Shown here: in pieces, positions 29,104-34,002 of the stretch
Position numbering within the stretch: the first letter of the stretch is position 1
How the letters are laid out: the number at the start of each line of letters is the position of its first letter
Origin: Deuterostichococcus epilithicus
Lineage: Eukaryota; Chlorophyta; Trebouxiophyceae; Prasiolales; Stichococcaceae
DNA: 64,000 nt
Assembly: GCA_033439295.1 (NCBI GenBank)
Contig: JAVTLE010000003.1
Coordinates: 1,116,001-1,180,000 of the forward strand
Reading direction: 5' to 3'
The notes under the pieces: generated by a model
Databases searched by the model: none
Told to the model about the DNA's origin: nothing
What the model saw: the letters and a program-made list of their open reading frames with translations, nothing else
Translations under genes and position numbers: made by a program

Positions 29104-32100
29104 CTACCAGCGCAGCGGCCCTGCCGGCAGGTATTTGGCGAGCAGCGCAGCGTAGTGACACTGCAGGGCCTCCCCGTCCAGCCGCCCCGGCAGCTCCACC
29201 TTCCTGTACGCCAGCAGCTCCTGCACCCACCAAAGACAGGGCCAGGTCACAGGCGCTGCAGGGTGGTCTGCAGCCGCCGCACTTCAGGGGGGCTGCCAAG
29301 CCGCGTTTGTGGACGCCCCAGCTCACGACCCGGCACACACAGGAGACCACCGCTATGCCCCGACAAGCAAGATGGCCAACAATGCTCCGACACTTGCACC
29401 AAGCCAAGGGGGCTACAGGGGTGCTTGGCGTACCTGGAACTGCACGAGCCATGGCAGCATGGAGCGGTCGAAGTCGTCCAGCAGCTGGCTGTACTCGCCG
29501 TCTGCCAGAGTGCGGAACTTGGCGTGCCGCAGCAGCCACAGCGTCGGCGCCGGCAGGCTCTCGCCTGCATTGGCGGACAGCACCATGTGCAGGTACTCTG
29601 GGCCTGCGGACACAGGTCGAGGGGTTGTCAGTGTTCGGTCTGGGACCAGGCATTTGGTCTGGGAGCAAGCAACCATCCCATACGCTGAGGTTGCTAGGTG
29701 CAGGGGCCTGCGGCACACCCGACAGCCCTGCCGCCGGCAGTCACCCAGCAGCAGATGCGCACCATGCACAACGGGCCTCCCAGTTCGCGCGACTGCCAGA
29801 GCCAGGCGAGCCATGCGACTGTGACGAGCGCGCACCTCCCCAGGACATGAGCACGTTGCTCAGGCCGCAGCCGCGGGCGTACATCCCGGTGGGCGTGTTG
29901 TACATGCGCCGCCGGCGGTCCGGGTTGACGCAGAAGTACTCGCTGGCGGTGATGCCCTGCGAGTGCTGGCAGCCCACCGGGAAGCTCTCGCCGCACACCG
30001 CCCACTGCGCCTCGCTGCCAAACCTGCAGGACGGGTGTGGTGGGTCGCTGGGTCAGCCCGGAGCACTCCACAGGCAGACTGCGGAACCCAGTTTGGCAGC
30101 GGCAACGTTGCAAGGCTGTTGCCTTGCAAAGCTCAGGCCGGCCGTGGCCTTGGGGGCTGCGGGCGGAAGGAGGGCAAGGAGGCAGGGGGAGGGCGGGCTC
30201 ACGTTGGGTGGGCCAGCAGCTTGCCGAGGCCATGCATGAGGCCCGCAAGGTGTAGCCACTCTGCGTGCGGGTGCGCCAGTCGGCACGCCTGCGCGAACGT
30301 GGTGTGGCCTCTCAGCAGCAGCTGCGCACTGCAGCAACACTGGCAAGTCGGCGGGTGCCACCACAGCAGTGTGGAGAGGCGGGCAGGAGCAGGCGTTGTT
30401 GCCAGCGGCCAGGGGCTGCTTGGATGGGTGATGGACAGGGGACCCACCATTTGCTGGGTGCAGTAAGGGGACACGTCTGCTGGTCACAGCATGAAACATC
30501 ACCAACCCACCTCGGCGGTCTGGAACGCATGCTCCATGAGGCCGAGGCCGCCTGCGGCGGCGCCGTCGCCGTCGAGCAACGGCGTCTCAAACTCCCGCAG
30601 GGTGTCCAGTGCCGCGAGCGCCTGCGCATGGCACAGCAGATCAAGATGAGGGAACGCTATTACATCAGGTGTATACAATTACACAAGTCTCCGGCACCTG
30701 GCAGCACGTTGCCAACTGGTGGCCAGGGCATGTGTCTGCACTGCCAACACTGTGTGTCAAGGCAGCCACAGATGTGCGTCGGACAGCCGAATATGCGTGG
30801 GAGGTGAAGGGGGCACCTCTGGGATAGTCATGAGTGCCTTGTCCAGCTGCGCATACGAATTTGCCTGGCGCCGCACAAAGTCGACCGTCTGCCGGGCGTG
30901 GTTAAGCCGCCAGAACAGCTGCAACGCCGCCTGCCCCTCGCTCAGGCACGCCCACTTGCGCAGGCCGGCTGCCGGAGCGCTGCCCTGTCACAGGGCAACA
31001 CAGGCAGCGTCAGAGCACTGCTGACATGAAAGTGGCCTGCACGACCGCTAGATGGTGATCTTGACCGGTGCTCTTTCTCAATTCTCGTCCACAAGCCCCA
31101 GCCTGGTGACAAGTTGCGTCAGCGCGAGAAGCAGTGGGACGGCGTAAGGGATTAGGGCCTGGCAGATGCGCCCGATGGCCAAACGATGTTTGAACGATGT
31201 ATTGTCTTAGGCCTAACAAATTCCCGCACCTGCTTGCGCAGCAGGGAGCCAAGGGCGTCGCCGTCCACAGCGGACGTCACCGCGGCCGTTGTGGTGGGGG
31301 ACAGCGGCGGCGGGTAGCGTTCCACAGGCATGGACGCCGCCTTCATGGGGCCACCGGATGGCAGCGGCCGCACCAGCAGCATCGGGCAGCCGCTGTCGCC
31401 GCAGCAGTCGGCATCCATCAGTGCCGCATCCCGTCGGCTCAGGCTGCCGTCATGGCTGACAAAGCTGCCATTGCCGCTGGCAACGCTGCCGCCAGCAACG
31501 CTGCCGCCGCCGGCGCTGCTGCCACCGGCGCTGTCGCCCGTGCGCACAGAGTCGAAGCTGCAGTGCGTGTGCGGGGCGCTGTCCGAGCGCGGCAGCTGCG
31601 AGGCCGACACCCGAGAGCGGTCCGAGGCGCTGCTGTCGGCTGCGGCGCCATCCAGGGATGAGCGCCCCCGACTGCCGGGACCCCCATGGTCCATGGAGCT
31701 GCGGCCCTGGCTGCTGCTGGAGTGGTCCAGGGACGAGCGGTTGGAGGAGGTTCCCCCGCCGCCGGACACCGACATGCTGACGCCGGAGGTGCTGCGCGCG
31801 GTCACCGGCGCTGTGGCGCCAAAGGCGCTGAACGCGGAGCGGCGGCTGCCAGGCCAGGCGCTGGACAGTGCGGCTTCGGCGGCGGTGGCGGCCGCGGCGA
31901 CAGCGCCGCTACAAGGGCGCTGGGGCAGGGGCTCGGTAGCCGCGTCCGGTGTCGGCGGCTGCTGCGGGCCGGGCTTGCTGCAGGCGAAAGCGCCTGAGGA
32001 GCCGGCCTTGAGATGGTCAACAACAGACGTGCGGCCGCAGATTGACGCCGGCAGGACGCACGACTGCGTCGTGGGGAATGAGCGGTTCAGCGCCGCCCGC

Positions 32101-32284
32101 ACAGGGTTGTCTGCCTCAAGTGGCGTGCTGCTGGCGGCCGGCCTGCCGCCGCTGCCGATGGTGGCGCGGCGGAAGCGCCCGGCGAGCAGAACTTCTGACT
32201 GAAAGCTGTTTGCCGACGGCTGCTGCGGCTGCTGCTGCTCCTGCTTCTGACCACAGCTGCCGGGCTCGCGCGCCTCGTGCACCA
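29104..32284 (-). CDS. Myo-inositol oxygenase homologue with lost metal ligands and a Ser-rich N-terminus
   Basis: Exons (5' to 3'): 32286-31230, 30984-30817, 30621-30511, 30321-30203, 30023-29836, 29603-29434, 29220-29104. The fold is clear: LNHARQTVDFVRRQANSYAQ, ALAALDTLREFETPLL, LMEHAFQTAE|LLLRG, WLHLAGLMHGLGKLLAHPT|F, QWAVCGESFPVGC, CGLSNVLMSWG|GPEYLHMV, LLDDFDRSMLPWLVQFQ| and a C-terminal HYAALLAKYLPAGPLRW. Active enzymes use six di-iron ligands. Here the HAFQTAE His, the first His of the HD pair and the His of LLRHAKF remain. The Asp of HD is Gly (MHGLG), the His of WGHDEY is Gly (WGGPEY) and the C-terminal Asp (FDLYTK) is Leu (LLAYRK). An oxygenase reaction is therefore doubtful. The first exon encodes about 350 residues rich in Ser/Gly, with RSSLDH, RSSMDH and RSSLDG repeats. 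Its start (MVHEAREPG) is tentative. Confidence 0.8.
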
Positions 32285-34002
32285 TCCTGTAGGTGATGCG
32301 GCAGTGAGTAGGCAGAAAAGATAGACCAGTGCGTTCGTGGTGCAGAGAGACACACAAACGGATGAAAAACGTCGCAGAGCATACTCGTCGTAGAGCAGGA
32401 TAAGAACGGCTGCCGAGGAGCTCGAAGAAACGTCATCTCAGCACTGTCGCCAGGTTGTGCGAAACGGCTCCTCGACGTGGGGCACTCGACCGGAAAGGCA
32501 ACATCAACAGTTTTTTGGGCGCTGTGGCAGAGCGCCAGCCTGCCGAGCGCCATTTCGGAACGCGCTAAGGTGCCAGAATGGGCCTCGTTGTGGCTGCTCA
32601 CCTGAGCTCCTCTGCTCCGGCGCTGGCGAGGGCCAGGCGGAGGGCGGCCGCCGAAAGGCCTTGCGCGCCACTGGTCTCCTTCCGGAAACGCTGGCTGCCC
32701 GCCCTGCTGCACGCATCGAACACCGCTCCCACCGGCCCTACAAGACGACGGACGAACAGCTCGCATCAGGATGGGGCTGCTCGCCTGCACCAGCCCCTGC
32801 AGGGCCGCGCGACGGGTACGACGGGTACGGCGAAGCGATCGAGTGGTCTTCGCCTGGCGCGGCTTGCGCCCGTCGGGGTTGCAGGGGAGTACCGCTTTGA
32901 GTGCCTCCTCAAGCAAGAAAAGCCAGGCCGCTTCCAGACTGCCGCCGTGCTACAGTGGCGGACCGGCCCGCACGGTGCTGCATGATAATGCTCCGTATCG
33001 CCGTGTAGGCCGCGCTGCGGAAAGTATACAGGCGCTTATTGGGCGTCCATGACATCACTTTGCCGTGGTGCAAATTTCTCGCACCTGTGTTGGCGGGCAG
33101 CCAGCACGGCGTCAGCGCGTGCGCAGGGCTGTGCAGGTCCGTCGTCGAGCAGGAACGCCGCATGACTGTGCGCACTGTACAGCCTGCACGTCACAGTGTG
33201 ACGGCAGGCGTAGGCCCCACAATGTGGAGCGACTCGCAGCGACGTTGCAGCGGCGGCTGCTTAGCTGCACTGGGGTACACCAAGGCACTACGAGTGGAAG
33301 CTTGCGTCCACGGAGTTCAAGGAACGAGCAGCACGCGGAAAGGTCGCTGCGGCAAATCGGGTCTGGATGAAAAGTGCAATGCAGAGAGTCCCTGTTCGGT
33401 CTGGTTTGAACAGGACTAGAATTCCGGGACTACTGATTGGCATCAGAGTACAGAAGACGCACATTCTCAGATGAGGAATCTTTAGTCATGGGGCGTATCC
33501 AATTCCAGCCACTGGACGGCTGACCATGACTTCTGTGGCTACCTTTCTTCTCTTCTGTGGCTGCGCAATCCTCCCATACAACCTCCGGCGTACTTCCAGC
33601 CCATCACAAGACCATGCCAGTATTCATGAAGCGCAGCTTGCCCGACCATGCAGAAATGCAATGTGATGTCCCTAAAAATCCCCTGGCCTCCGTGTGGTCG
33701 CCGATGCAACATCGCGCCGCAGCCAGCCATGTGCGGCTGTAGCACTGCCAGCGACACTCGCTCATGGGGGGCAGCCATCCGATCCGGTGCTGCTGGCGGC
33801 AGCCACGGCCGCTTACACGAGCGGCGGCTGGCAGTGTGCTGCGCTATTGCAGCGCCTGCGGCATCACGAGGAGGAGGCACTCATGCCGGTGGCACTGGGC
33901 AGGTGGCTCAAAGCCCCACATCGCAAGAGGACAGGCACCATCAATACACCGCACAATAAGGACAAGCTGACAGGGGGAGCGCACCTGGCAAAAAGCAGCA
34001 GT
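32285..34002. other. Intergenic region, MIOX-like upstream / H+-PPase 3' flank
   Basis: It contains unassigned frames on both strands (e.g. 32116-32916 minus, 32578-32985 plus, 33539-33880 minus). None has a recognisable domain. Part of it could be 5' exons of the MIOX-like gene. Confidence 0.35.

Follow-up and report, generated by a model that had tools for sequence, protein, structure and literature searches.

The window analysed here (the whole stretch of 64,000 nucleotides, on contig C3 of the Deuterostichococcus epilithicus genome, which spans 46.8 Mb in 21 contigs) contains what is probably a maintained nuclear gene for a pseudoenzyme with the fold of myo-inositol oxygenase (MIOX) and a serine-rich N-terminal extension. 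MIOX converts myo-inositol to D-glucuronate at a mixed-valent Fe(II)/Fe(III) centre, and the substitutions of metal ligands described below make it highly likely that this chemistry has been lost while the gene itself has been kept. The six ligands are invariant across the 77 other full-length homologues examined. According to PMC8177086, few HD-domain di-iron oxygenases are known, and MIOX was the first of them to be discovered.

Gene model and family identity

The gene model runs on the minus strand from the ATG at 32285 to the end of the TAG at 29104 and comprises seven exons and six introns of 179-245 bases, all introns being GT-AG; the coding sequence of 1896 bases is open and encodes 631 amino acids. 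Exon borders were picked on the GT-AG rule from the sequence of one genome. In the first-pass annotation, which gave no strand, the gene spanned 29104..32284: the end at 29104 stands, while the start is off by one. The same annotation had followed the MIOX fold from exon to exon, with splice junctions that preserve it, and this observation is confirmed. The exons and the sites of interest are as follows.

31230..32285, minus strand: exon 1; start codon and a 352-residue Ser/Ala/Gly-rich extension that matches no Pfam family and carries RSS[LM]D three times
30817..30984, minus strand: exon 2; beginning of the MIOX domain (NHARQTVDF)
30511..30621, minus strand: exon 3; HAFQTAE, ligand H98 retained
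30203..30288, minus strand: exon 4; LMHGLGK, H123 retained, D124 replaced by Gly
30229..30231, minus strand: codon of the D124 site; GGC (Gly) in place of the bridging ligand (coordinates calculated manually from the exon borders)
29836..30023, minus strand: exon 5; FPVGC core, the last base being the first base of the position-194 codon
29434..29603, minus strand: exon 6; GPEY, with Gly for H194 and Pro for D195, and LLRHAKF
29526-29521, minus strand: H220 region in exon 6; two codons, with His or Ala at the ligand position (ambiguous)
29104..29220, minus strand: exon 7; ELLAYRK, with Leu for D253, then the C-terminal LRW and the stop codon TAG
29212..29214, minus strand: codon of the D253 site; CTG (Leu) (coordinates derived by hand from the exon table)

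Exon 4 has a second in-frame acceptor, at 30321, which adds 11 residues to the protein. Since this insert has no counterpart in mouse or human MIOX, the start at 30288 is preferred, and it gives a MIOX domain of family length.

Regarding family identity, residues 374-631 match the Pfam MIOX family (PF05153) over profile positions 5-249 of 249 with 193.6 bits, against a curated cut-off of 25, which places the whole domain in this family. The best solved relatives are mouse MIOX (2HUO/3BXD, E 1.1e-49) and human MIOX (2IBN, E 1.9e-46; phmmer), and a three-way alignment, of the kind called for in the first-pass annotation, aligns the full domain with 44% of residues identical to the mouse chain and 43% to the human one. 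The algal protein shares with both the full-length domain, the TVDF, HAFQTAE, FPVGC and VLMSWG motifs, K127, K257 and the C-terminal W, but differs from them in D124G, H194G and D253L, in the uncertain H220, in other altered positions (see below) and in its N-terminal extension of 352 residues. Bacterial MIOX proteins have the same domain, the top identity being 43% over 257 columns (27-row tree); unlike the algal protein, they have all six ligands in 75/75 cases.

Substitutions at the di-iron site

The six di-iron ligands of MIOX, H98, H123, D124, H194, H220 and D253, are only partly conserved in the algal protein: two (H98 and H123) are surely kept, three are replaced and one is ambiguous. 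D124 is replaced by Gly (HG for HD, codon GGC), H194 by Gly (WGGPEY for WGHDEY, codons GGC and CCA, the Gly codon being split by intron 5) and D253 by Leu (LLAYRK for FDLYTK, codon CTG). The same three substitutions had been read in the first-pass annotation, and both exon translation and codons agree with them. The annotation also had the other three His ligands remaining, which holds for H98 and H123; at H220 the alignments disagree over a one-residue deletion. On sequence grounds, the loss of three ligands is certain and that of a fourth, H220, possible. The codons GGC, GGC and CTG differ by one, two and three bases from the ligand codons GAC, CAC and GAC, so a single read error fails as an explanation. 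Further family-invariant positions are altered, namely D85E, D88T, D142E, D195P and S221 (Ala under MAFFT), while K127, K257 and G141 are retained in the old pocket.

At position 220, phmmer gives Ala against human MIOX and His against mouse MIOX, the cause being the one-residue deletion; MAFFT puts His at 220 with a gap preceding it, and in the family HMM alignment the ligand position falls into the gap. In a structure prediction of moderate quality for bacterial MIOX (8 sequences, mean pLDDT 60.5), the confident helix ends at residue 230 and the ligand His is residue 231, just past the helix end and followed by a less confident stretch. In distant MIOX relatives, deletions sit after the ligand His. 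Considering the helix end just before His and these deletions after it, Ala at 220 is mildly favoured by the predicted structure, which would bring the losses to four of six ligands.

Ligand conservation among relatives

The comparison set consists entirely of homologues from bacteria and mammals. The bacterial set was drawn from eight records found via DNA patterns, their eight genomes, and 392 + 396 genomes from two phyla, its sources being Planctomycetota, Acidobacteriota, Akkermansia, Comamonas and others. Among the loci retrieved first, 52 different frames hit mouse MIOX with an E-value of 1e-5 or lower, of which the weak L029 and L042 were set aside. All six ligands are present in the remaining 50 bacterial proteins and in the mouse and human enzymes. 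Because these 50 were the best-scoring loci, the 25 remaining full-length matches in the set of 396 genomes were added later, and all six ligands are present in 25/25. Altogether, 77/77 full-length relatives (75/75 bacterial, mouse and human) keep what the algal protein has lost, and the absence of conserved catalytic residues by which pseudoenzymes are recognized is thus found here.

No divergent member with a readable motif was seen to lack a ligand: L029, L042 and L109, highly divergent bacterial MIOX-like HD proteins scoring 37 to 44 bits against Pfam, have the series H, HD, H, H, D intact (read by eye in HMM alignments), and are possibly a separate oxygenase subfamily. L110, L044 and L045 match chiefly around H...HD, the whole motif being unreadable, and L043 has no match to the family HMM. 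Among viral_contigs, no relative was confirmed (0/15 pattern matches from the family alignment and 0/16 from the query alone).

The motif order H...HD...H...H...D is common to MIOX and the HD-domain di-iron oxygenases PhnZ and TmpB (PMC8177086). In the algal protein this motif is broken, and neither PhnZ nor TmpB is among the 3 PDB sequences obtained at E up to 1.

Exon borders and sequence errors

That an ordinary active MIOX only looks broken, through wrong exon borders, an assembly error or changes at the RNA level, would be most improbable. The exon borders do come from the sequence of one genome, and the first-pass annotation had itself named other exon borders that restore the ligands as the finding to overturn its reading. 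GT or GC donors and AG acceptors were enumerated in stretches around the 5/6 and 6/7 junctions: a WGHDEY-like motif appeared in none of the 231 open splice combinations at the former, and a D-L-Y-like motif in none of the 147 at the latter, so that neither the H194 nor the D253 motif was restored by any choice tested. A few GC-donor choices at the 5/6 junction bring a His near the PEY/EY of exon 6, several extra residues past the conserved W-G. Against an active enzyme there is also the location of D124 inside exon 4 and of position 220 inside exon 6, together with the fact that three separate sites are concerned, with multi-base codon changes.

Copy number and pathway

A second canonical MIOX, the search for which had been suggested in the first-pass annotation, was not detected in the genome with any of four queries (Pfam model, mouse MIOX, the algal protein and a bacterial MIOX); the search runs exon by exon, scores best candidates only and may miss short exons. 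A weak hit on C19 (E 0.38), found with one query only and recovered neither with the Pfam model nor with the algal query or the bacterial protein, was rejected: a MIOX HMM does not match it at E 10, and its frames of 20 amino acids or more contain none of the seven MIOX motifs looked for. By the same search method, a UDP-glucose dehydrogenase gene was found at one place on C5 (two matches) and an inositol-phosphate synthase gene at one place on C12 (two matches). If the gene is the sole MIOX, the organism probably forms no glucuronate from inositol. UDP-glucuronate can be obtained through UDP-glucose dehydrogenase instead of the MIOX route, and from this pathway knowledge it would then come via the dehydrogenase.

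Constraint and decay

In the first-pass annotation the exons were all open and the gene was not a dead copy, a reading with which the open frame over seven exons, the high GC3 and the lack of any disruption agree. GC3 ranges from 0.79 to 0.97 across the seven exons, against a GC content of 0.56-0.69 in the introns. In exon 1, GC3 is 0.84 against 0.66 for GC1 and 0.67 for GC2, and the exon is stop-free in only one of six frames; an open frame of 426 amino acids is not very rare alone, since frames as long occurred in 8/300 simulated 3.5-kb strands of the same composition. The 52 relatives share 50 invariant columns, 33 of which the algal protein still keeps. When the domain was simulated under neutral drift to 34% replaced, which is the fraction of family-invariant columns lost, a mean of 3.0 stops arose and 4.75% of 400 runs were stop-free, indels not being counted; at an assumed 0.05 indels per substitution, the probability of no indel under neutral drift is about 6e-4. 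Taken from the sequence, these features support a gene under constraint, whether altered or relaxed.

Ligands are not significantly enriched among the lost positions: 3/6 ligands are lost against 14/44 other invariant positions (Fisher p 0.33), and the enrichment stays non-significant if H220 is counted as lost (p 0.11) or if substrate contacts are added to the ligands (6/12 against 11/38, p 0.16). In a 27-row tree, where its placement is unsure, the query ends a very long branch (length 5.69; mammals about 1.8). The fast evolution of the whole domain would also fit relaxed constraint.

This scatter of losses and this branch length, along with the lone MIOX copy detected and the presence of UDP-glucose dehydrogenase as another source of UDP-glucuronate (pathway knowledge), are what would be expected of a decaying gene, i.e., of a lone copy drifting after the inositol-oxygenase route was abandoned and not yet struck by a stop or frameshift. 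Such decay is nevertheless rather unlikely in view of the open seven-exon frame and its GT-AG introns, the strong GC3 in every exon, the 33/50 invariant columns retained and the rarity with which simulated drift leaves the domain free of stops and indels.

Possible function of the MIOX-fold protein

Where the first-pass annotation had proposed either a pseudoenzyme or a protein with changed chemistry, the former agrees with the 77/77 relatives that keep the lost residues, while the loss of both metal-binding Asp residues makes a new reaction at that metal site unlikely. An enzyme with altered chemistry or another metal would have to use the remaining His residues and new pocket residues. H98, H123, K127, K257 and possibly H220 are indeed kept, two acidic pocket positions have changed conservatively to Glu, and the HD superfamily is varied in metals and reactions (PMC8177086). 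Against this, both motif Asp residues are lost (D124G and D253L), and two or three His alone would probably make a poor metal site. HD-domain metal hydrolases, whose site is H...HD...D, generally rely on such Asp residues too, and with D124G and D253L the algal sequence departs from this site as well. We consider a new enzymatic activity of this kind unlikely.

In the proposed maintained pseudoenzyme, the MIOX domain is, by sequence conservation, kept as a module. Its di-iron centre should no longer assemble, as the bridging D124, the ligands H194 and D253 and perhaps H220 are gone; loss of iron and of activity would follow from these substitutions. Binding would then be the likeliest mode of action, the target being a partner protein or else a polyol or sugar held in the old pocket, which retains K127, K257 and G141 and has Glu in place of D85 and D142; the long serine-rich tail might be a regulated or partner-facing part. 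These are guesses, and any particular binding role is put forward only tentatively. It can further be speculated, with lower probability, that the MIOX fold has become a non-catalytic binding module in a green-algal lineage that gave up the oxygenase, e.g., a sensor of myo-inositol or an inositol derivative, or a scaffold whose serine-rich tail is regulated, which would make it the first pseudoenzyme of the HD-oxygenase group.

A fold that is kept while catalytic residues are gone is a trait shared with pseudoenzymes of other families, as described in two reviews (PMC5106787, PMC10211241). No MIOX pseudoenzyme was found in the literature searched, where subscription journals are scantily covered, nor among the matches listed in a broad search, and no mention of H194 or D253 came up there. 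Among reports on green algae, PMC12537018 has MIOX homologues first appearing in chlorophytes, functional divergence not being evidenced there. An inositol oxygenase is among the expanded, transcribed genes of one Chlorella (PMC12902096), and the MIOX of one Dunaliella is taken as active from transcript level (PMC4660794).

N-terminal extension and genomic surroundings

The first 352 residues, with 64 Ser, 49 Ala and 41 Gly, have no Pfam match at E 1. They contain three RSS[LM]D repeats, a count reached in 0/5000 shuffles, the pattern having been picked after it was sighted. The four R..S motifs of exon 1 are not above shuffles (mean 4.5). One RSDSAP, presumably the pattern of a 14-3-3 mode-1 site, also lies in this exon (shuffle P 0.066).

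The next recognisable gene upstream, on the same strand, encodes an H+-pyrophosphatase (PF03030; 34345-37779, minus strand), which five frames match, two of them above the Pfam cut-off. No Pfam family was found at E 0.01 in 10 frames at 20.5-27.2 kb, in the other 9/10 frames of one neighbouring set or in another 10 long frames taken from the rest of the window.

A 28-base pattern of the TTTAGGG type, TTTAGGG being the plant-type telomere repeat, has 157 forward and 161 reverse matches genome-wide; among the matches listed, arrays occur at the starts of C1 and C5, near 2.618 Mb on C3 and near 1.950 Mb on C4. From these arrays at or near such contig positions, the assembly looks long-range. The GC-rich composition, the intron-rich genes and the plant-type telomere repeats are all consistent with a green alga.
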